Of a DNA stretch of 64,000 nucleotides, positions 45,507 through 57,343 are shown one piece after another. This DNA comes from Eudoraea adriatica DSM 19308 (GTDB lineage: Bacteria > Bacteroidota > Bacteroidia > Flavobacteriales > Flavobacteriaceae). Every line of letters starts with the position of its first letter. Position 1 is the first letter of the stretch. A program made the position numbers and the translations under genes. Below the pieces are notes generated by a model that saw only the letters and a program-made list of their open reading frames with translations, had not been told where the DNA came from and did not search any database. The stretch covers positions 62,001 to 126,000 of the forward strand of contig NZ_KB907549.1 of NCBI RefSeq assembly GCF_000382125.1, in the 5' to 3' direction.

Positions 45507-48056
45507 ATGGATGATAATTTTTCACCAAGGGTAAAGGATGTAATTGCTTACAGCAAGGAAGAGGCATTAAGGCTGGGTCATGATTTTATTGGTACCGAGC
45601 ATTTAATGCTGGGTTTACTGCGTGACGGAAATGGCAAAGCAATCAGCATTTTGGATGCCCTGGATGTAGACCTGGATCACTTAAGACGAAAAGTTGAGAT
45701 TTTGAGCCCGGCAAATCCAAATTCCGGAGGGATTCAAAAAGATAAAAAAAATCTTCATCTTACAAGACAGGCAGAACGCGCATTGAAAACGACCTTTCTA
45801 GAAGCTAAATTGTTTCAAAGCTCTTCAATAAATACCGCACATTTACTTTTATGTATCCTGAGAAACGAAAACGATCCTACCACAAAATTACTTCACAAGC
45901 TCAAAGTGGATTATGATGGTGTGAAAGATCAGTTTAAATCCATGATCACAAGTGAGGATGACTATATTGACTCCCCTACCTCTGAATCGTTTCCAAGTGA
46001 TTCTGATGAACCGGTAGAAGGTAAAGAAGGTTCTTTTGGTTCTGCTTCAGGTCAAAAAGGAAGCAAAAAATCCAAAACACCTGTTCTAGATAATTTCGGA
46101 AGAGATTTAACGCGTCTTGCAGAAGAAAACAAATTGGATCCTGTTGTTGGCAGGGAGAAAGAAATTGAACGAGTATCGCAGATACTAAGCAGAAGAAAGA
46201 AAAACAACCCACTTTTAATTGGGGAACCCGGTGTTGGTAAAAGTGCAATTGCGGAAGGTTTGGCGCTGCGAATCATAAACAAAAAAGTATCCCGGATCCT
46301 TTACAATAAAAGGGTGGTCACCTTAGACCTGGCTTCGCTGGTTGCCGGCACGAAATATCGCGGTCAGTTTGAAGAGCGGATGAAAGCCGTAATGAATGAA
46401 TTGGAAAAAAATGATGATGTCATCCTGTTTATAGATGAGATCCATACTATAGTGGGTGCTGGAGGCGCTACAGGCAGCCTGGATGCTTCAAATATGTTTA
46501 AACCGGCTTTGGCACGGGGAGAGATTCAATGTATAGGAGCAACTACCCTTGATGAATACAGACAGTATATTGAAAAAGACGGCGCGCTCGAAAGACGCTT
46601 CCAAAAAGTAATGGTAGAGCCAACTACAGTGGAGGAAACCATTGAAATATTAATGAATATTAAAGGGAAATACGAAGATCACCACAATGTAAATTATACT
46701 GATGAAGCCATTTTGGCCTGTGTTAAGCTTACAAACAGATATATGACCGACAGGTTTTTGCCGGATAAAGCAATAGATGCTTTGGACGAAGCTGGTTCAC
46801 GGGTACACATAATAAATATGGATGTTCCAAAACAAATTCTTGAATTGGAAAATCAGCTGGAAGACGTGCGCGAGCTGAAGAATAGTGTAGTTAAGAAACA
46901 ACGTTATGAAGAAGCGGCGAAACTTAGGGATGATGAAAAAAGATTAGAAAAAGAACTTGCAGTTGCCCAGGAAAAATGGGAGGAAGACAGTAAACTTCAC
47001 AGGGAAACGGTAAGTGAGGATAATGTGGCTGATGTGGTTTCTATGATGAGTGGAATTCCGGTAAATAAAATAGCACAGACTGAAAGCAACAAACTTGCTG
47101 AATTGCCAAATCTCATTAAAGGGAATGTTATTGGGCAGGATGAAGCTGTTGCGAAAGTTGCGAAAGCCATACAAAGAAACAGAGCGGGTCTTAAAGATCC
47201 GAATAAACCTATAGGCTCATTCATTTTCCTCGGACAAACAGGTGTTGGTAAAACCCAGTTGGCCAAGGTGTTGGCTCAGGAGCTTTTCGATTCTGAAGAT
47301 GCCTTGATCAGGATTGATATGAGTGAGTATATGGAAAAATTTGCCATTTCCAGACTAGTTGGTGCTCCTCCCGGTTATGTGGGGTACGAGGAAGGCGGAC
47401 AACTTACTGAAAAAGTCAGACGCAAACCTTATTCTGTAATTCTATTGGATGAAGTTGAGAAAGCACACCCGGATGTTTTTAACATGTTGCTTCAGGTATT
47501 GGATGATGGTTTTTTAACGGATAGTCTGGGTCGCAAAATAGATTTCAGAAATACGATCATTATAATGACCTCGAATATTGGTGCCCGCCAGCTCAAGGAC
47601 TTTGGACAAGGCGTAGGTTTCGGAACAGCAGCAAAAAAATCACAGGAACACGACCACCATAAGAGTGTCATTGAAAATGCCCTGAAAAAGGCGTTTGCTC
47701 CGGAATTCCTTAACAGAATAGATGATGTGGTTGTATTTAATCCGCTGGAGCGCGAACATATTCACAAGATTATCGACATTGAATTAAATAAGCTTTACGA
47801 AAGAATTAAGGATATTGGATACGATCTGAATTTAACGGATAAAGCCAAAGATTATATTGCCGATAAAGGTTTTGACAAACAATACGGTGCACGACCTTTG
47901 AAAAGAGCGATTCAGAAATATATCGAAGATGCCCTGGCTGAGGAAATTGTAAATTCTAAACTCGAAGAAGGAGATAGTATTTTCATGGACCTGGATGAAA
48001 AGAAAGATGAATTATCTATTAAGATAAAAAAATCTAAAAAGGGCTCCAAAGCATAG
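45507..48056 (+). CDS. clpC: ATP-dependent Clp protease ATP-binding subunit ClpC
   Basis: An 849-residue Hsp100 unfoldase. It has two Clp_N repeats (~1-145) and a first AAA+ domain (Walker A GEPGVGKSA, Walker B LFIDEIH). A middle domain with a UVR-type motif (YEEAAKLRDDEKRLEKEL) follows, then a second AAA+ domain (GQTGVGKTQ; ILLDEVEKAH) and a C-terminal D2-small domain. The UVR motif and length identify ClpC rather than ClpA or ClpB. It feeds proteins to ClpP and is divergent from gyrA. A terminator follows at 48079-48109. Confidence 0.96.
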   Translation: MDDNFSPRVKDVIAYSKEEALRLGHDFIGTEHLMLGLLRDGNGKAISILDALDVDLDHLRRKVEILSPANPNSGGIQKDKKNLHLTRQAERALKTTFLEAKLFQSSSINTAHLLLCILRNENDPTTKLLHKLKVDYDGVKDQFKSMITSEDDYIDSPTSESFPSDSDEPVEGKEGSFGSASGQKGSKKSKTPVLDNFGRDLTRLAEENKLDPVVGREKEIERVSQILSRRKKNNPLLIGEPGVGKSAIAEGLALRIINKKVSRILYNKRVVTLDLASLVAGTKYRGQFEERMKAVMNELEKNDDVILFIDEIHTIVGAGGATGSLDASNMFKPALARGEIQCIGATTLDEYRQYIEKDGALERRFQKVMVEPTTVEETIEILMNIKGKYEDHHNVNYTDEAILACVKLTNRYMTDRFLPDKAIDALDEAGSRVHIINMDVPKQILELENQLEDVRELKNSVVKKQRYEEAAKLRDDEKRLEKELAVAQEKWEEDSKLHRETVSEDNVADVVSMMSGIPVNKIAQTESNKLAELPNLIKGNVIGQDEAVAKVAKAIQRNRAGLKDPNKPIGSFIFLGQTGVGKTQLAKVLAQELFDSEDALIRIDMSEYMEKFAISRLVGAPPGYVGYEEGGQLTEKVRRKPYSVILLDEVEKAHPDVFNMLLQVLDDGFLTDSLGRKIDFRNTIIIMTSNIGARQLKDFGQGVGFGTAAKKSQEHDHHKSVIENALKKAFAPEFLNRIDDVVVFNPLEREHIHKIIDIELNKLYERIKDIGYDLNLTDKAKDYIADKGFDKQYGARPLKRAIQKYIEDALAEEIVNSKLEEGDSIFMDLDEKKDELSIKIKKSKKGSKA

Positions 48057-48078
48057 CACATTGTAAGAATTTAGTCAT

Positions 48079-48109
48079 AAAGGGATCAAGTTAATTGGTC
48101 CCTTTTTTT
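48079..48109 (+). terminator. Intrinsic terminator of clpC
   Basis: AAAGGGATCAA (48079-48089) pairs with TTGGTCCCTTT (48095-48105), with one wobble, and is followed by more T. Confidence 0.88.
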
Positions 48110-48256
48110 ATTTCCCTGGATTACAAAAAGTAAGAATAAGAATACACCTGGATTTACCTCAAACCATATAAACGATATATATGCCTTTGGTCTAATATTT
48201 TTCGGAAAACTTGTACAAGCCTATACTTTCGTCTTAGACACACTAAACTATATGAA

Positions 48257-48658
48257 ATGAAAGTCGGACCGGCTAAGAAAATAATTATAGTCAAAGAATA
48301 CAACTTAGATATTGGTACCGTTCAGGTATTCGAAAATCACATGGTTGCCATCTTTGACGAAGGGGCAACACTCACCCTGGAAAGGGCCTATCAAATTATA
48401 GGAATTTCAGAGATCCATTTTAGAGATAAAAATTTTGGTATTATCAGTCTCAGAAAAAATTCCTATGCTATAGATCCTACTATTTACAGTTATTTAAGGG
48501 AGTTAAAAAATCTTAAGGCATTTGCTGTTGTATCCGTAAAGGAAGTAGATATGCATAATTTTAAAATTGAAAAACTCTTCTTTAAAAAACCTATGAAATT
48601 TTACATTGATTATAACAATGCACTCGCCTGGGTGAAAAGAAGAGTGCGTCAGAAGTGA
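48257..48658 (+). CDS. Small STAS-like protein of unknown function
   Basis: A 133-residue soluble protein with alternating beta and alpha stretches (VQVFENHMVAIFDEGATLTL, AFAVVSVKEVD, FYIDYNNALAWVKRR). The final segment has the look of SpoIIAA/STAS-like flavobacterial proteins. I cannot name a function. Its promoter may be TTCG-N19-TACTTTCG (48201-48231), one mismatch in each box. Its stop codon (48656-48658) directly abuts the stop of the convergent nnr gene, with no spacer. Confidence 0.75.
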   Translation: MKVGPAKKIIIVKEYNLDIGTVQVFENHMVAIFDEGATLTLERAYQIIGISEIHFRDKNFGIISLRKNSYAIDPTIYSYLRELKNLKAFAVVSVKEVDMHNFKIEKLFFKKPMKFYIDYNNALAWVKRRVRQK

Positions 48659-50203
48659 TCATTCTTTTTTTGCTGTGTTTTCAGCATCCATAGGCGGCAC
48701 ATTAAACAAATCAGTGAAAGCAGGCCCAATTCCATTTATTATGGCGGTTGCAGTCAGCGCCTGATATCCCAGCTTTTCAATTGCTATGTCTGCTGCCCGA
48801 CCATGCAGGTATACGCCAAAAATAGCTGCCTTCACAGGTTCATATCTCTGTGCCATTAATGAAGTAATCATTCCTGTTAGCACATCCCCGCTTCCTGCGG
48901 TAGCCATACCCGGATTTCCTGTTGTATTTATATATCCCTGATCGTCATAGATCACAATAGTATGAGCATCTTTAAGTACGAGGATGCAATCGTAGGTTTT
49001 AGAAAATTGTTTAGCCTTTTCCAGCTTATCAAAATCATCTGCCCAGGCACCCAACAATCGCTTCAATTCTCCTGGATGCGGTGTGAGTATAGTTTTTGGA
49101 GGAAGCTTTTTTAATAATGATTTATTTAGGGAAATAATATTCAGTCCATCAGCATCGATTACCAATGGAGCTTTTAATGAATCTAAAAATTCTGTGAATG
49201 CTTTCTGTGTCTTTTCCGTAGTTCCCATTCCAATTCCCATTCCTATAACATCCGGCTCAATTTTCACAGAAATATTCAAAATTTCCTTTTCGCCTTCATC
49301 AGTTAGAACCATAACTTCGGGCAATGAACTCTGCAATGGAATATACCCGCACTGCGGCACATAGGCCGAGACCAACCCACTCCCCGTTGTAATACAGGCG
49401 CGTGAAGCAAGGGAAACGGCCCCGATTTTCCCATAGCTGCCCCCAAGAATCAAAGAATGTCCATAAGTGCCTTTATGCGAAAATTTTTCCCTTGGGATAT
49501 AATAACTTAAAACTTCATTTTTGCCAATAAGCTCGAAGCTGGCATGGGTCTGTTCTATATATTTTTGAGACAAACCAATATTCAAAATTTCCCATTGATT
49601 AGAGAATACCCCAGTTTCCGGCAAGAAAAAAACAAGTTTGGGAAACTGAAAACTAAGCACATAATTAGCTTTTACAACTGATTTTAAATTTTCAACAGCA
49701 CGATCTAAAAACAAACCCGATGGAACATCAACGGAAACAACAAAAGCGCCTGAATTATTTAGATGTTCAATAATCTGCCCTACCCATTTGTCCGGTGATC
49801 TGTTTAATCCGATCCCAAAAAGAGCATCAATAACAATTTCTTCCGAATCAATTGAAGGAAGTCCCGTATCCGGGTTCATAAAATATGGCCAAATCTTACG
49901 ATCTTTTAATCGTTCCAAATTAGCAAGAAAATCGGGAGACCTCTTTTTGCTGTAGTTTACAACAATTACTTCAATATTATACCCATGTTCCTGCAAATGC
50001 CTGGCCAGGGCCAATCCATCTCCACCATTGTTTCCAATCCCACAAAACAATTTAATTTTTACCTGTGCCCCCTTCAGCCTGTGGTGCAGCCAGTTGAAAA
50101 GTTGAATAGACGCCCTTTCCATAAGTTCATAACTATTCATGTTTTGCTCTGCCAATGTAAATTGGTCAGCTGCGTAAATCTGCTTGGCCGTAAATATCTT
50201 CAT
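48659..50203 (-). CDS. nnr: Bifunctional NAD(P)H-hydrate epimerase/dehydratase
   Basis: A 514-residue metabolite-repair enzyme. The N-terminal YjeF_N domain (~1-215) epimerises S/R NAD(P)HX; its signature is GNNGGDGLALARHL. The C-terminal ribokinase-like domain (~220-500) dehydrates S-NAD(P)HX using ADP or ATP. Its motifs are GSYGKIGAVSLASRAC and ATAGSGDVLTGMI, and the catalytic Asp is in the latter. Both domains are complete. The gene is divergent from the threonine operon. Confidence 0.95.
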   Translation of the reverse strand: MKIFTAKQIYAADQFTLAEQNMNSYELMERASIQLFNWLHHRLKGAQVKIKLFCGIGNNGGDGLALARHLQEHGYNIEVIVVNYSKKRSPDFLANLERLKDRKIWPYFMNPDTGLPSIDSEEIVIDALFGIGLNRSPDKWVGQIIEHLNNSGAFVVSVDVPSGLFLDRAVENLKSVVKANYVLSFQFPKLVFFLPETGVFSNQWEILNIGLSQKYIEQTHASFELIGKNEVLSYYIPREKFSHKGTYGHSLILGGSYGKIGAVSLASRACITTGSGLVSAYVPQCGYIPLQSSLPEVMVLTDEGEKEILNISVKIEPDVIGMGIGMGTTEKTQKAFTEFLDSLKAPLVIDADGLNIISLNKSLLKKLPPKTILTPHPGELKRLLGAWADDFDKLEKAKQFSKTYDCILVLKDAHTIVIYDDQGYINTTGNPGMATAGSGDVLTGMITSLMAQRYEPVKAAIFGVYLHGRAADIAIEKLGYQALTATAIINGIGPAFTDLFNVPPMDAENTAKKE

Positions 50204-50385
50204 TTCCCAAATGAAAGTTAGATCCTGGAATAACCCTTTAAAGCAATACCCTTGTTTAAAATAGCCTTTCTTGTTTAGGTTTAAATTTCAAATTCCATTG
50301 TATGGCAATCAATCATCCCAAAAGAACTATTTTTTGTAAAAATATTTGAAAAAGATTGATGACTTCGCAAAAATAGCATGAATTA

Positions 50386-50416
50386 TTTGATAAGGGGCTC
50401 AAAAGTCCTACTTTTG
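50386..50416 (+). promoter_or_regulatory. Promoter of the threonine operon
   Basis: TTTG (50386-50389), a 19-nt spacer and TACTTTTG (50409-50416) match the Bacteroidota housekeeping promoter exactly. Transcription should begin near 50423, about 13 nt before the leader-peptide ATG. Confidence 0.8.
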
Positions 50417-50435
50417 AATTGTTATCATAGCCATT

Positions 50436-50531
50436 ATGAAAATTATATCGGACATAAACAGATGGGCTTTATCCCATGCCAATCAGCACTATTTTGCTGC
50501 TACAACCGCCACTGCTACCCCTAAGGGGTAA
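50436..50531 (+). CDS. Threonine-operon leader peptide (candidate attenuator)
   Basis: A 31-codon ORF lies between a strong promoter and thrA. It begins MKIISDINRWAL, and its last ten residues read ATTATATPKG, with four Thr codons within six (ACA ACC GCC ACT GCT ACC), just before the stop. The start also holds three Ile codons. This is the design of amino-acid leader peptides that sense charged tRNA, as in the E. coli thr leader, though the sequences are unrelated. A 6-bp hairpin TACCCC-TAA-GGGGTA (50516-50530) overlaps the end of the ORF. thrA starts 78 nt later. No T-rich terminator is visible, so the control step after stalling is unknown. Confidence 0.75.
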   Translation: MKIISDINRWALSHANQHYFAATTATATPKG

Positions 50532-50609
50532 TATTCTACATATACGTCCGTATTCATTTAAATTCACTCACAACACCGGTATCAATTGCGCAATTAATAA
50601 AATATAATA

Positions 50610-53054
50610 ATGAAGATTTTAAAGTTTGGAGGTACTTCAGTAGCCAATGCACAACATATAAAACGGGTTCAGAATATCGTCAAAAATTTGGATGGAAACA
50701 AGATGGTTGTTGTAGTATCAGCTCTCGGGGGAATTACAGATTTACTCTTAAAAACGGTTGATTTGGCATCCATGCAGGATGAGAACTATAGAGATTGTCT
50801 ACGTGAAATAGAGGCCAGGCATATAAAGACCATTAAAGAACTTATTCCAATTCAATTGCAAAGTGCCATTTTAAGCAAAGTGAAAAGCGAATTAAACATT
50901 CTGGATACGCTGGCCGAAGGGGCATTTCTAATTGCTGAAAAGACCCCTAAGTTAACCGACAAGGTTGTAAGTTTTGGCGAACTTTTATCTTCTTATATTA
51001 TCAGTGAATTCTTCATCTCAGAAGGTATGAATTCTGCATTTAAAGATAGTCGGGAACTAATCAAAACCGATGATGTGTATGGAATGGCCGGTGTGGATTT
51101 TAAAAGCACAAATGGCTTATGCAAAACATATTTTTCAAATTCTAAAAACAACATAACCGTCATTCCCGGATACATTTCTTCATCAACCAAAGGCAATTCA
51201 ACAACCTTAGGCAGAGGTGGTTCTGATTATTCAGCAGCCATAGTGGCCGCTGCCATCGATGCCGCAGAATTACAAATATGGACAGACGTTAGTGGCATGT
51301 ATACGGCTAATCCAAGGATAGTTAAACAGGCAAAGGCCATCCCACAGATCTCGTATGAAGAGGCAATGGAATTATCCCATTTTGGAGCTAAAGTTCTTTA
51401 CCCACCTACCATTCAACCTGTACTGTCGAAAAACATACCTATCCTCATTAAAAATACTTTTGCCCCGGAAGAACCGGGTACTTTAATAGCCAAAAACCAA
51501 AATTTCCTTGGCAAATCCGTAAGGGGCATTAGCAATGTAGAGCATATTACGCTTCTCTCATTGGAAGGCCCCGGAATGATCGGGATACCGGGTATTTCAA
51601 AGCGCTTTTTTGAAGTGCTTTCCCAGGCCGGTATAAGTGTTGTGCTTATAACGCAGGCATCCTCAGAGCATTCAATTTGTGTTGGAATTTCTGATAATGA
51701 TGCCGCAACTGCAGAATCATTGGTAAACACGGCTTTTGAATATGAAATAGCTACAAATAAAATTAAACCGGTTATTGTAGAAAGTGAACTCGCCATCATT
51801 GCCCTGGTAGGAGATAATATGAAAAGTCACCAAGGCCTAAGCGGAAAGATGTTCAGTGCATTAGGTAAGAACAATGTAAATATCAGGGCTATTGCACAAG
51901 GCGCTTCAGAAAGGAATATTTCGGCCGTTATTAAAAAGGAGGATGTAAAAAAGGCCCTGAATACTTTACACGAAGAGTTTTTTGAGGAAAATATTAAGCA
52001 ATTAAACCTCTATGTAATGGGCGTGGGCAATGTGGGTTCCAGGTTTATTAAGCAAATCGAAAATCAGAAAAAATATCTTAAAAAGAACCTTAAACTAAAT
52101 CCGCGGGTCATTGGATTGTCTAATTCGAGAAAAATGGTTTTTGATGAGGATGGGATACCCTTGGAACGCTGGGAAGAGATGTTGGAAGAGGGTGAAAAAG
52201 CGGATAAGATCAGGTTTTATGAAAACGTCTTAAAATATAACTATCGCAATAGCATTTTTGTAGATAATACCGCCAGCGAAATTGTGGCTGAGACTTACTC
52301 TGATTATTTAAAACGAAGTGTTTCAGTAGTTACCTGCAATAAAATAGCCTGTTCTTCGGACTACGAAAAATACAGGAACCTTAAAGAGCTTTCACGGGAA
52401 TATAATTCTCCATTCTTATTTGAGACTAATGTGGGTGCCGGATTACCGATCCTAGACACTCTGAAACATTTGATAGCCTCCGGAGATAAGATCAACAAAA
52501 TACAAGCTGTACTATCCGGGAGCCTGAATTTTGTTTTTAATAATTTTGATGACTCTACCACTTTTCACGATGTTGTTAAAAGAGCCCAGGAGGAAGGATT
52601 TACTGAACCGGATCCAAAAATAGATCTCAGTGGCATTGATGTAATGCGAAAAATTTTAATCCTGGCACGGGAAAGTGGTTATAAACTGGATATAGAGGAA
52701 ATAGAGAACAAGTCATTTTTACCCGAAGAAAGTTTGGCTGCCACCAATAATGAGGACTTTTATGCTTCCCTTACTGCCTATGAAAAATCCTTTCAGGAAC
52801 TTTATGCAAAGGCGGTTTCTTCTGAAAGCAAGTTGAAATATGTTGCAGAATTTGCAAATGGAAATGCCAGTGTTGGATTAGAGCAAATCCCCAAGGGTCA
52901 TGATTTTTATAATTTAGAGGGAAGTGATAATATTGTACTCTTCTATACGGAAAGATATCCCAACCAACCGTTGATTATCAAAGGGGCCGGGGCCGGTGCG
53001 GATGTTACTGCATCCGGCATTTTTGCAGATATCGTAAGAATAGGAAATTTTTAA
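50610..53054 (+). CDS. thrA: Bifunctional aspartokinase/homoserine dehydrogenase
   Basis: An 814-residue fusion. Residues 1 to ~290 form the aspartokinase (KFGGTSVA at the N-terminus; GRGGSDYSAA). Two ACT regulatory domains follow (~310-455), where threonine inhibits such enzymes. Residues ~460-814 form the homoserine dehydrogenase, with the NAD(P) motif VMGVGNVGS and the catalytic region FTEPDPKIDLSGIDVMRK. It opens the pathway from aspartate to threonine and makes homoserine. It is first in thrABC, 4 nt before thrB, and lies behind the leader ORF. Confidence 0.97.
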   Translation: MKILKFGGTSVANAQHIKRVQNIVKNLDGNKMVVVVSALGGITDLLLKTVDLASMQDENYRDCLREIEARHIKTIKELIPIQLQSAILSKVKSELNILDTLAEGAFLIAEKTPKLTDKVVSFGELLSSYIISEFFISEGMNSAFKDSRELIKTDDVYGMAGVDFKSTNGLCKTYFSNSKNNITVIPGYISSSTKGNSTTLGRGGSDYSAAIVAAAIDAAELQIWTDVSGMYTANPRIVKQAKAIPQISYEEAMELSHFGAKVLYPPTIQPVLSKNIPILIKNTFAPEEPGTLIAKNQNFLGKSVRGISNVEHITLLSLEGPGMIGIPGISKRFFEVLSQAGISVVLITQASSEHSICVGISDNDAATAESLVNTAFEYEIATNKIKPVIVESELAIIALVGDNMKSHQGLSGKMFSALGKNNVNIRAIAQGASERNISAVIKKEDVKKALNTLHEEFFEENIKQLNLYVMGVGNVGSRFIKQIENQKKYLKKNLKLNPRVIGLSNSRKMVFDEDGIPLERWEEMLEEGEKADKIRFYENVLKYNYRNSIFVDNTASEIVAETYSDYLKRSVSVVTCNKIACSSDYEKYRNLKELSREYNSPFLFETNVGAGLPILDTLKHLIASGDKINKIQAVLSGSLNFVFNNFDDSTTFHDVVKRAQEEGFTEPDPKIDLSGIDVMRKILILARESGYKLDIEEIENKSFLPEESLAATNNEDFYASLTAYEKSFQELYAKAVSSESKLKYVAEFANGNASVGLEQIPKGHDFYNLEGSDNIVLFYTERYPNQPLIIKGAGAGADVTASGIFADIVRIGNF

Positions 53055-53058
53055 TTAA

Positions 53059-53979
53059 ATGAATAAAATTAAAGTCTTTTGTCCGGCTACTATTGCTAAT
53101 ATTTCCTGTGGATTTGATGTCCTTGGTTTGGCCCTGGAGGCAATAGGAGATGAAATGATCGTGCAAAAGACAAAAGAACCCGGTATCAGAATCTCTAAAA
53201 TAACAGGGCAATCCTTACCCCTTGAAACAGCAAATAATGTTGCCGGGGTAGCGGGATTGGCCTTTTTAGAACAAAGCAATTATACTGGTGGGTTTGAGAT
53301 TGAAATTCACAAAAAGATTAAAGCCGGGAGTGGAATTGGCAGCAGTGCTGCAAGTGCTGCAGGCGCTGTATGGGCTATGAATGAGCTTCTGGATAAGCCA
53401 TTTTCACCTATTGAACTTGTAAAATTTGCCATGCAAGGCGAGGCCTTAGCCAGCGGCGTGGCGCATGCAGATAATGTAGCGCCTGCCATATATGGTGGAT
53501 TTACCCTGGTGCGTAGTTATGAACCCTTGGATATTATCAAAATAAATACTCCCCCTGAATTGTTTGCTTCGGTGATTCACCCTCAGATTGAAGTAAAGAC
53601 ATCAGATTCTAGAAAAATTCTTAAAACATCCATTTCTTTAAAAGACGGGATAAAACAATGGGGAAATGTTGGCGGACTCGTATCCGGACTTTTCCTTGAA
53701 GACTACGACCTGATTGGCAGGTCTTTGGTAGACCACATTATAGAACCAATCCGCTCCATGTTAATCCCTGGTTTTGGGGATGTAAAATCAAAAACAATGA
53801 AGGCAGGGGCATTGGGCACCGGAATTTCCGGATCGGGGCCTTCTATTTTTGCCTTGAGCAGAGGAAAAGAAACGGCAGAGAAAGTGGCAGAAGCGATGAG
53901 GAATGTATACCTCAATATTGGTGTGGATTATGACGTATATGTATCAAAAATAAATACCAAAGGAATGCATAAAATATAA
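53059..53979 (+). CDS. thrB: Homoserine kinase
   Basis: A 306-residue GHMP kinase with motif 1 near CPATIANISCGFDVLG, the phosphate loop GSGIGSSAASAAG, and motif 3 GTGISGSGPSIF. It phosphorylates homoserine. It starts 4 nt after thrA and 30 nt before thrC. Confidence 0.97.
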   Translation: MNKIKVFCPATIANISCGFDVLGLALEAIGDEMIVQKTKEPGIRISKITGQSLPLETANNVAGVAGLAFLEQSNYTGGFEIEIHKKIKAGSGIGSSAASAAGAVWAMNELLDKPFSPIELVKFAMQGEALASGVAHADNVAPAIYGGFTLVRSYEPLDIIKINTPPELFASVIHPQIEVKTSDSRKILKTSISLKDGIKQWGNVGGLVSGLFLEDYDLIGRSLVDHIIEPIRSMLIPGFGDVKSKTMKAGALGTGISGSGPSIFALSRGKETAEKVAEAMRNVYLNIGVDYDVYVSKINTKGMHKI

Positions 53980-54009
53980 TTTTGACTTTTTATTCCTTAA
54001 AACCGGTAA

Positions 54010-55305
54010 ATGAAATTTTATAGTTTAAATAATAAAGCTGCGGATGTATCCTTTAAAGATGCTGTTTTAAGAGGAATAGCTCCCGACAGAGGTTTGTACT
54101 TTCCACGGGAAATAAAACCATTACCTGCTTCTTTTTTTGAGAATATTGAAGAACTATCAGATCACGAAATTGCCTTTGAGGCAATAGAACAATTCGCCAG
54201 TGATAGTATACCTGAAATTAAATTAAAAGAAATTATAACCAGCGTGTTAGATTTTCCCTTTCCCGTTGTTGAATTGGAAAAAAACGTAGCAACTTTAGAG
54301 CTTTTTCATGGGCCCACACTTGCTTTCAAAGATGTAGGGGCCAGGTTTATGGCACAAAGCCTCGGCTATTTCTCAGAGGGTGAAAACAGTGAGGTAACAG
54401 TGTTGGTAGCTACTTCTGGAGATACAGGCGGGGCAGTAGCTAACGGCTTTTTGGGCGTCAAAGGTGTTAATGTGGTAATATTGTACCCAAGTGGTAAAGT
54501 CAGTGATATCCAGGAACGTCAGTTAACAACTTTGGGACAGAATATTACGGCTCTTGAGGTTAATGGCAATTTTGACGATTGCCAGAATATGGTTAAAACT
54601 GCATTTTTAGATTCGGAACTGAAGTTTGAAATACAATTAACCTCAGCAAATTCAATAAATGTTGCCAGGTGGTTACCACAAATGTTTTATTTTTTATTTT
54701 CCTATAAAAAACTTAAAAGCAAGAAGCGACCCATAGTATTCTCTGTCCCCAGTGGTAACTTTGGAAATATTTGCGCAGGGATGGTAGCCCAAAAACTAGG
54801 CATGTCGGTTGCACATTTTATAGCGGCAACAAATGTAAATGATACGGTACCGCGTTTTATGCGTACACAAGAATATACTCCTGTGACTTCAAAAGCTACT
54901 ATTTCTAATGCAATGGATGTAGGAGACCCCAGTAATTTTATTAGGATTAGGAATCTTTATAAAAATAATTTTACCGAATTAAGGAATAATTTGTCCTCGT
55001 ATTCCTTTACCGATGAACAAACAAAACGTGCAATCCTTGAAATTTATAATAGCAGCAGCTATATAGCTGATCCCCATGGTGCTGTAGGATATTTAGGTCT
55101 GAAAGAATATCAGAAAGACAACCCGGATACCTTTGGTGTATTTTTGGAAACAGCGCACCCTGTTAAGTTTTTAGACGTAGTTGAAGAAACCCTAAAATTG
55201 AACTTGCCAATTCCTTCTCAGATTCAAAATGTATTGGAGAAAAAGAAAGTTTCTGTCAATATTGATACTTACGATGAACTTAAAAGTTATTTGTTAGGCA
55301 AATAA
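54010..55305 (+). CDS. thrC: Threonine synthase
   Basis: A 431-residue PLP fold-II enzyme. The Schiff-base Lys is in GPTLAFKDVGARFM, and the phosphate-binding loop is in ATSGDTGGAVANG. The N-terminal motif NNKAADVSFKDAVLRGIAPD is typical of the long bacterial form. It converts O-phosphohomoserine to threonine and completes the operon. Confidence 0.97.
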   Translation: MKFYSLNNKAADVSFKDAVLRGIAPDRGLYFPREIKPLPASFFENIEELSDHEIAFEAIEQFASDSIPEIKLKEIITSVLDFPFPVVELEKNVATLELFHGPTLAFKDVGARFMAQSLGYFSEGENSEVTVLVATSGDTGGAVANGFLGVKGVNVVILYPSGKVSDIQERQLTTLGQNITALEVNGNFDDCQNMVKTAFLDSELKFEIQLTSANSINVARWLPQMFYFLFSYKKLKSKKRPIVFSVPSGNFGNICAGMVAQKLGMSVAHFIAATNVNDTVPRFMRTQEYTPVTSKATISNAMDVGDPSNFIRIRNLYKNNFTELRNNLSSYSFTDEQTKRAILEIYNSSSYIADPHGAVGYLGLKEYQKDNPDTFGVFLETAHPVKFLDVVEETLKLNLPIPSQIQNVLEKKKVSVNIDTYDELKSYLLGK

Positions 55306-55346
55306 TGTATCTTATATCTGGTAGTCATAAAACATTGTGAAGGCAA

Positions 55347-55378
55347 ATTGAGCTATCTATTAATTTTCTATAAATTTG
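55347..55378 (+). promoter_or_regulatory. Promoter of gcvT
   Basis: ATTG (55347-55350), a 20-nt spacer and TAAATTTG (55371-55378) lie 21 nt before the ATG at 55400. This also argues against the upstream TTG (55376) as start, because it would lie in the -7 box. Confidence 0.7.
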
Positions 55379-55399
55379 CGCAGCTTAAATCGAAGAAAT

Positions 55400-56485
55400 A
55401 TGAAGAATACGGCTTTAACTAAAACTCATGAAGCACTCGGAGCTAAAATGGTTCCTTTTGCAGGATATTTAATGCCGGTATCTTATGAAGGTGTTAATGC
55501 CGAACATGAAACTGTGCGAAAAGCAGTGGGCGTCTTCGATGTTTCTCATATGGGAGAATTCCTGGTTGAGGGACCCAGCGCTTTAACGCTTATACAAAAG
55601 GTTACATCAAACGATGCTTCAAAACTCACGGTTGGAAAAGCCCAATACAGCTACTTCCCAAATGAATCCGGGGGTATTGTGGATGACCTCATTGTATACA
55701 GGGTAAAAGAAGAAGTCTTCCTTCTCGTCGTTAATGCCTCTAATATTCAAAAGGATTGGGATCATATTTCCAGGTACAATGAATCTATTGGTGCCGATCT
55801 AAGAAATATATCGGATAACTACTCTTTATTGGCTATACAAGGGCCAAAAGCGGTAGAATCCATGCAGTCTTTAACCTCTGTAGATCTTTCTGCCATAAAG
55901 TTCTACAATTTTGTAGTAGGTGATTTCGCCGGGATAGAACACGTTATAATTTCAGCAACAGGTTACACAGGTTCGGGCGGTTTCGAAATCTACTGCAAAA
56001 ATGAGGAAGTAAAACAAATTTGGGATAGCGTTCTGGAAGCAGGTTCTGCCTATGGAATTAAACCAATTGGTTTGGCTGCAAGGGATACGCTTAGATTAGA
56101 GATGGGCTATTGCCTTTATGGGAATGACATTAATGATGAAACCTCTCCGATGGAAGCCGGCCTGGGTTGGATTACAAAGTTTAGCAAAGACTTTGTGAAC
56201 AGTGAAGGTCTTGCAAAAGAAAAGGAGCAACCACTAAAACAAAAATTAATTGCCTTTGAATTGCAGGAACGTGGAATCCCAAGGCAAGGTTATGAAATTG
56301 TAGATGGAGAAGGCAATAAAATTGGCTATGTTACCTCAGGAACAATGTCTCCTTCACTGAATAAGGGTATTGGCCTGGGTTATGTAAAAACAATGTTCTC
56401 GGATCCGGGAAGTGATATTTATATACAGATACGTAAGAATACAGTAATGGCAAAAGTGGTGAAATTACCATTTTATAAAACTTAA
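55400..56485 (+). CDS. gcvT: Aminomethyltransferase (glycine cleavage T protein)
   Basis: A 361-residue T protein. It binds tetrahydrofolate and takes the aminomethyl group from lipoyl-H protein, releasing ammonia. The N-terminal motif [20 protein letters not shown], the central [10 protein letters not shown] and the region [11 protein letters not shown] with the following [14 protein letters not shown] are all typical. The ATG at 55400 is preferred over a TTG 24 nt upstream, which overlaps the promoter. Next to the threonine operon it fits a broader glycine/threonine one-carbon theme, though it has its own promoter. Confidence 0.95.
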
Positions 56486-56515
56486 ATTCTTTTTGCGAAC
56501 GAAGAGGGTACGAGT

Positions 56516-57343
56516 GTGAAAGACGGAGGAAAGAAAATACTTATTTTAGGGGGTAGCGGTTTTATCGGGAATGCTATTTACAAGGAACTCTGCAATTATT
56601 TTGACACCTATGCTACGTATTGTTCGTCCGGAAGCTCCTTCGAAGAGAACAAACAATTTATAAGGTATGATATGCTGGAAGATGATATCTATCAACTTCT
56701 GGAACAAATTCGTCCGCAAATAATTATTTCCGCCTTAAGGGGTAATTTCGGTGCCCAAATTCAGGCCCATCAGCATATGGCGGAATATCTCATTAAAAAC
56801 GACTGCAGACTATACTTCTTATCTTCTGCCAATGTATTTGATGCATATAGTAAATACCCATCATATGAACAAGATAAAACCTTATCTGAAAGCGTCTACG
56901 GGAGACTAAAAATCAGAATAGAGAATATGCTTTTGCGATTACCTAAGTCCAAAATGGCAATTTTAAGGATCCCAATGGTATTTGGGAATTCATCGCCCCG
57001 GGTAAAGGAAATGAAGAAATTTATTTGGAACAATGAACCAATAGAAGTTTTCCCGAACCTGATTGTTAATGTAACAAGCATTAGCAAACTTACCCAGCAA
57101 ATCCATTACCTCATTAATCGAAATAAGATTGGAATTTACCATTTGGGTAGTTATGATTTGGTTCACCACGAAGATTTTATAAAAGATATTCTTGAAAGGA
57201 TTGGGAGCTTCAATCCTATTTTTAAGAGGGTGTTCACCACAAATGAGGAGCGCTACCTGGCAGTTTTACCCAAAGACAATAAACTTCCCAAAAACCTTCG
57301 TATTAGTTGCCAGGAAATTATTGATCATCATGTTATTGGCTGA
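56516..57343 (+). CDS. NAD-dependent epimerase/sugar-nucleotide reductase-like protein
   Basis: A 275-residue extended short-chain dehydrogenase of the RmlD/epimerase type. The Rossmann motif is ILGGSGFIGNAI near the start. The Tyr/Lys pair expected for catalysis is in VYGRLKIRIE. Start is GTG at 56516, 30 nt after gcvT, so the two are probably co-transcribed. The substrate is unknown; a nucleotide sugar is likely from the family. Confidence 0.85.
   Translation: MKDGGKKILILGGSGFIGNAIYKELCNYFDTYATYCSSGSSFEENKQFIRYDMLEDDIYQLLEQIRPQIIISALRGNFGAQIQAHQHMAEYLIKNDCRLYFLSSANVFDAYSKYPSYEQDKTLSESVYGRLKIRIENMLLRLPKSKMAILRIPMVFGNSSPRVKEMKKFIWNNEPIEVFPNLIVNVTSISKLTQQIHYLINRNKIGIYHLGSYDLVHHEDFIKDILERIGSFNPIFKRVFTTNEERYLAVLPKDNKLPKNLRISCQEIIDHHVIG

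Follow-up and report, generated by a model that had tools for sequence, protein, structure and literature searches.

The window, a stretch of 64,000 nt of the Eudoraea adriatica DSM 19308 genome, carried the threonine operon thrABC on the plus strand, preceded by a promoter, a short leader ORF, and a linker, with a divergent gene on the other strand. The features of this locus (positions counted from the first letter of the window) were as follows:

Start at 50203, minus strand: divergently oriented gene encoding YjeF and carbohydrate-kinase domains
50386..50389, plus strand: TTTG, upstream promoter element, read from the sequence
50409..50416, plus strand: TACTTTTG, -7 box (TAnnTTTG), from the sequence and the published consensus
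50436..50531, plus strand: leader peptide ORF of 31 codons plus stop, from the ORF listing and frame conservation
50462..50477, plus strand: H1, hairpin within the ORF, ATGGG/CCCAT, from the window fold
50502..50519, plus strand: control codons 23 to 28, ACA ACC GCC ACT GCT ACC (Thr, Thr, Ala, Thr, Ala, Thr)
50516..50530, plus strand: H2, hairpin TACCCC-TAA-GGGGTA, from the window fold and conservation
50532..50609, plus strand: 78-nt linker with C at 0.21 and G at 0.08, lacking a canonical terminator
50538..50551, plus strand: ACATATACGTCCGT, part of an AT-rich tract, then TCCG, recurring after H2 in relatives
50610..53054, plus strand: thrA, fused aspartate kinase/homoserine dehydrogenase of 814 aa
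53059..53979, plus strand: thrB, homoserine kinase with GHMP kinase domains
54010..55305, plus strand: thrC, threonine synthase

The two promoter boxes TTTG and TACTTTTG were both present at a spacing of 19 nt, just as the initial annotation of this DNA had proposed. According to the part of the Flavobacterium psychrophilum transcriptome paper covered here (PMC9723704), the consensus TAnnTTTG is located at -12 to -5 in that species; by analogy with this position, transcription of the window operon would start near 50421, about 15 nt 5' of the leader ATG. Of the 85 dereplicated leaders (sampling given below), 76 had the same box at most 160 nt upstream of the H2 end, compared to a rate of 0.07 in mononucleotide shuffles; 55 of these 76 boxed leaders had TTG 17 to 26 nt upstream of the box, and 69 had an in-frame ATG followed by a frame open through the last Thr codon.

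The leader ORF translated as MKIISDINRWALSHANQHYFAATTATATPKG, in which Thr occupied codons 23, 24, 26, and 28 (four in six codons), and three codons (Pro-Lys-Gly) separated this Thr run from the stop. The 31-codon ORF and its Thr run had been described in the initial annotation with correct coordinates and counts, and so had the location of thrA 78 nt past the leader stop, with thrB and thrC next. The nearest relative (L001; ThrA identity 92%) had VTTTTTTPKG where the window had ATTATATPKG; thus, two Ala codons of the window run were found at positions where L001 had Thr.

The sequence comparison was applied to the window together with three samples of relatives: (i) a close set of 80 fetched loci with a ThrA relative, 78 of which had usable upstream DNA (L012 and L013 were dropped, their upstream DNA being unusable); (ii) a family sample of 149 genomes, 114 of them with thrA, in which 80 of the 113 other matching genomes were taken for upstream DNA and 79 of the 80 stretches were usable (L203 had no identifiable thrA start); and (iii) a class sample of 159 genomes, 32 of them with the gene, in which 29 loci were read besides the window's own and two matching genomes yielded no locus. 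The window, the 78 close loci, and the 79 family-sample loci made up 158 leaders, of which 129 passed a filter on H2 pattern and distance and 85 remained after dereplication; 84 of these 85 could be placed in frame.

An upstream ORF with at least four Thr in ten codons was found in 58/78 close loci, 40/79 family-sample loci, and 12/27 class-sample loci of other families, while dinucleotide shuffles gave rates of 0.037, 0.018, and 0.037, and the opposite strand gave 0, 1, and 1 such loci, respectively; the f1 loci of the class sample had it in 2/2 cases, with 0.150 in shuffles and 0 on the reverse strand. This threshold of four Thr was missed by 20/78 close and 39/79 family-sample loci. With at least three Thr, the counts rose to 76/78, 61/79, and 16/27 (other families), and the shuffle rates rose to 0.236, 0.144, and 0.181.

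The ten codons before the hairpin were then compared across reading frames in the 84 dereplicated Flavobacteriaceae leaders: Thr stood at 3.10 in frame versus 0.05 to 0.17 out of frame, Ile at 1.85 versus 0.30 to 0.42, no in-frame stop occurred within these codons, and the Thr codons of the runs were divided into ACT (97), ACA (78), ACC (59), and ACG (26). This pattern reflects selection acting on the codons of the run and not on the nucleotide letters. The Ile enrichment was visible in the relatives and could not be seen in the window alone. The comparison with relatives that the initial annotation had suggested as a check thus came out in its favor, with frame, start codon, and Thr run all kept.

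A feature absent from the initial annotation was H2, the hairpin over the last leader codons. It took the form ACCCC-NNN-GGGGT in the window, where its 5' arm began with the last Thr codon (ACC, 50517-50519) and its 3' arm reached into the leader stop codon (50529-50531). The strict form CCCC-N3-5-GGGGTA[AG] was found in 75/79 close leaders, the window included; the exceptions were L018, L055, and L068, which had none, and L067, which had a weaker form. In relatives, the stop codon fell within the H2 loop or the 3' arm, or followed that arm by as much as about 20 nt. Many family-sample loci had AACCC/GGGTT in place of the H2 letters, and L116, L120, and L123 had ACGGG/CCCGT (seen by eye); the last Thr codon still began the stem in both variants. 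The pattern CCC-N5-GGGTAA occurred at 21 places in the genome, and among the 20 that were checked (L104 was left out) a control-codon run was found only at the thr one.

Folding above shuffles was found for three regions of the 85 leaders: the H1 region (p=1.5e-7), the H2 region (p=1.8e-15, partly circular as the leaders were chosen by the H2 pattern), and the H3 region past the linker (p=4.8e-8); there was no such excess in the linker (mean z 0.13) or near the beginning of the leader (p=0.32). Within the window, neither the H2 pattern (4 matches with at most one mismatch versus 2.59 expected) nor the stability of the overall leader fold (z -0.19) was unusual; the case rests on conservation. 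H2 itself was almost invariant in sequence and therefore provided little covariation evidence. A mutual-information scan of 61 aligned leaders yielded mostly noise. The centroid fold showed a long-range helix, CGGAC (50449-50453)/GTCCG (50546-50550), which is not claimed here: it had p=0.40 in the 85 leaders, against a permutation p of 0.035 to 0.039 in the 49 leaders that dereplication left of 82 close ones. L038 and L065 were excluded from the mutual-information scan and the permutation test; these two loci had an intact leader and hairpin about 170 nt 5' of thrA, about 100 nt farther than the other relatives.

Natural loss cases were also recognized: L018, L055, L067 (Pricia), and L068 (Eudoraea) had a missing or altered hairpin together with a weak or absent Thr run, and no such Thr leader was found upstream of thrA in L055 and L068.

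Short ORFs were frequent in this part of the window, 86 of at least 25 aa overlapping positions 48000-57000, as would suit a chance ORF with no role; the conservation of frame, codons, promoter, and hairpin alike makes that reading extremely improbable. With the frame-specific Thr/Ile run and H2 both conserved, there is good support for a leader peptide that senses Thr/Ile, and the leader very probably controls thrABC through the ribosome, with charged tRNA-Thr (and tRNA-Ile too in many relatives) as the signal sensed. Leaders of the same genome with His, Trp, and Phe runs, each ahead of the corresponding genes (given below), also speak for this reading, as do the promoter box, the in-frame ATG, and the folding of the H1 and H3 regions. 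The loci with fewer than four Thr, the two Ala codons in the run of the window, and the ordinary stability of its fold speak against it. The features established by comparison were a short ORF just behind a TAnnTTTG box, one open frame, and a Thr/Ile run ending at H2. When threonine is scarce, the ribosome would stall on the run and cover the H2 5' arm plus the C-rich run, and thrABC would be transcribed; when threonine is ample, the ribosome would get to the stop codon and depart, H2 would close, and more transcripts would end early.

For this clade, a canonical intrinsic terminator was not the output step. Such terminators, taken as a hairpin of -6 kcal/mol or below with 6 or more T in 8, were sought up to 200 nt from thrA. 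None was found in the window between leader and thrA; the counts were 2/79 for the close leaders (the window not among the two), 13/79 for the family sample, and 8/29 for the class loci, and several terminators of the latter two samples stood apart from any Thr leader. Since a canonical terminator was lacking in the window (77/79 close leaders in all) and the GGGG arm of H2 had no conserved partner, classical attenuation is not supported in the window's clade. The layout of attenuation announced in the initial annotation accordingly stood in its sensing half; for the window and for most of its clade, the scans found no canonical terminator and no conserved antiterminator. A role of H2 as the opening pair of arms in a switch of the trp type was also considered and was unsupported in the clade for the same want of a conserved GGGG partner.

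Terminators with a complementary antiterminator strand were found before thrA in L121, L122, L124, L127, and L205, the last belonging to the window's family (these duplexes had no shuffle control). L121, L122, L124, and L127 came from one other family (f41), and their Thr/Ile leaders had seemingly textbook attenuators; L125 resembled this type with a weak Thr run, and L202 had a terminator by eye, the automatic step having chosen another hairpin. Leaders of such design were also found in the window's own genome, each with a terminator plus an antiterminator duplex: (i) a 17-codon leader MRNKNTHHHFYTCTQAR with HHH before hisG (L216, C3:427954-428418 region; terminator -15.7 kcal/mol and duplex -15.1); (ii) an 18-codon WWW leader before a trpE-like gene (L217, C9:62921-63676 region; terminator -20.0 kcal/mol and duplex -8.1), which matched RF01692 Bacteroid-trp; and (iii) a 23-codon leader MTRNYFWNGTYFYFFFKRSTGLF with FFF before pheA (L220, C7:96798-97334 region; terminator -11.6 kcal/mol and 2:3 duplex -15.1). 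No leader was seen by eye before ilvD, the two examined leuA-like genes (L221 and L222), or the second AK-HSD paralogue; this paralogue (L082, C7:112290-114692) is likewise an AK-HSD fusion, shares 38% identity with ThrA, and lay within a longer open frame, with no evident leader.

These thr, his, trp, and phe leaders lend some weight to classical trp-type attenuation in the window itself, with a terminator and antiterminator overlooked by the scans, such as a weak, factor-assisted H3. H3 was indeed found in 49/85 leaders at a steady place (start at a median of 29 nt after H2 and end at a median of 36 nt before thrA), and folding predicted that the freed GGGG arm pairs with some partner (mean probability 0.79). 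However, H3 had a U-rich tail in 7/49 cases and was absent from the window, L002, and L004, and pairing of the GGGG arm with the downstream region was slightly worse than in shuffles (p=0.004, 85 leaders); taken with the scarcity of canonical terminators in the close leaders, this makes an overlooked trp-type attenuator unlikely.

The position of H2 at the control codons would also fit H2 itself being an atypical terminator whose formation is blocked by the stalled ribosome, and H2 was followed by a U-rich tail in a few relatives (L189, L193, L206, and L112, and, with a longer stem, L074 and L080). The tail was nevertheless AT-rich, not U-rich, in the window and most relatives, and a ribosome completing the ORF would also cover H2, with RNA polymerase just beyond; this possibility is as doubtful as the preceding one.

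Rather lower still stands translational control, in which the stalled ribosome would alter access to the thrA start: a leader-thrA gap of 78 nt and the placement of H3, which many relatives have just 5' of the thrA start region, are consistent with it, but masking of the leader moved the predicted openness of the thrA start only from 0.537 to 0.559 (p=0.08; higher in 49/85 leaders).

Rho-dependent termination ranked ahead of the overlooked or factor-assisted terminator, the H2 terminator, and translational control, and is the best guess for the output step, at a confidence well short of even. It is favored because the linker was C-rich and G-poor, Rho is encoded in the genome, and the other outputs were less supported. 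The linker had a mean C of 0.202 and G of 0.088 versus 0.164 and 0.157 in background upstream regions, C exceeded G over the Thr run plus linker in 82/85 leaders versus 47/99 background regions, and a C-G difference of at least 0.12 was found in 32/85 versus 1/99; the 99 background regions came from the 78 close loci only and were not independent. The YC density over the Thr run plus linker, 0.110, was above the background (0.082) but close to that of thrA coding DNA (0.104), a point against Rho. Rho would load on the Thr run together with the linker, rich in C and poor in G, and part of this site would be masked by the stalled ribosome; the scarcity of G in the linker may have causes other than Rho. 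Read in this way, the thr leader of Flavobacteriaceae may, still more tentatively, be a minimal switch without terminator or antiterminator: one hairpin would sit on the last control codon, the C-rich ACN run would double as part of the Rho-loading site, and the stalled ribosome would shield the transcript from Rho.

The AT-rich tract after H2, together with TCCG (noted by eye), was kept while the remaining linker varied, G being at most 0.06 at +7 to +13 after H2 in the leaders. None of the four output readings accounts for this tract.

The window stretch matched no Rfam leader family at the gathering threshold, and three unrelated weak matches, none of them a leader family, were found up to E=10; in NCBIfam and Pfam, 0 families matched the thr leader peptide, such short peptides being hard for profiles. 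RF00506, the Thr leader family of proteobacteria, was thus not among the matches, and the remark of the initial annotation that the peptide is unrelated to the proteobacterial thr leader agrees, as far as recognizable similarity goes, with the searches of all three databases. E. coli thrL is a short ORF with a run of Thr and Ile codons before thrABC. The flavobacterial leaders resembled it in having a short ORF with a Thr/Ile run ahead of thrABC and differed from it here in the lack of a family match, in that no terminator/antiterminator was found, and in the last control codon lying within the hairpin. The mgtL uORF is another short ORF, one linked to Rho. Among uORF systems where ribosome stalling acts together with Rho is the topAI uORF of E. 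coli (PMC12121999, portion covered). The resemblance to the threonine leader is that a ribosome stalled on a short ORF controls the next gene; the signal of that type of uORF is antibiotics or other stress, and a part for Rho in the threonine leader is a prediction.

Among the main texts of open-licence PMC papers, no report of a thr leader in Bacteroidota was found. The F. psychrophilum transcriptome paper, in the part covered, presents indications that amino-acid operons are attenuated by leader peptides, with pheA and hisG elements named, and the word threonine is not in its main text; its attenuators share with the present leader the bacterial family and the placement before amino-acid operons, and a leader peptide was proposed for them from structure and transcription (PMC9723704). 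The covered portion of the Bacteroides thetaiotaomicron map (PMC7366714) deals with leader-like sORFs in general and contains neither threonine nor thrA, and that of Korolev et al. (PMC4833913) gives a statistical treatment of leader genes in which threonine is not covered. Because Bacteroid-trp and the F. psychrophilum elements were already known, the present finding does not amount to a first discovery of control by leader peptides in Bacteroidota; what it contributes is threonine, as a further amino acid apparently under such control there.

The Bacteroid-trp RNA (RF01692) is among the closest known systems, a leader-peptide RNA of Bacteroidota that matched the trp leader of the window's own genome; it differs in its Trp codons and in that this trp leader had a canonical terminator, unlike the thr leader. 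Two output designs were found in one genome, (i) terminator-bearing leaders before his, trp, and phe genes and (ii) a thr leader lacking one, and this allows one to test directly how a sensing module works after losing, or never having had, a terminator.
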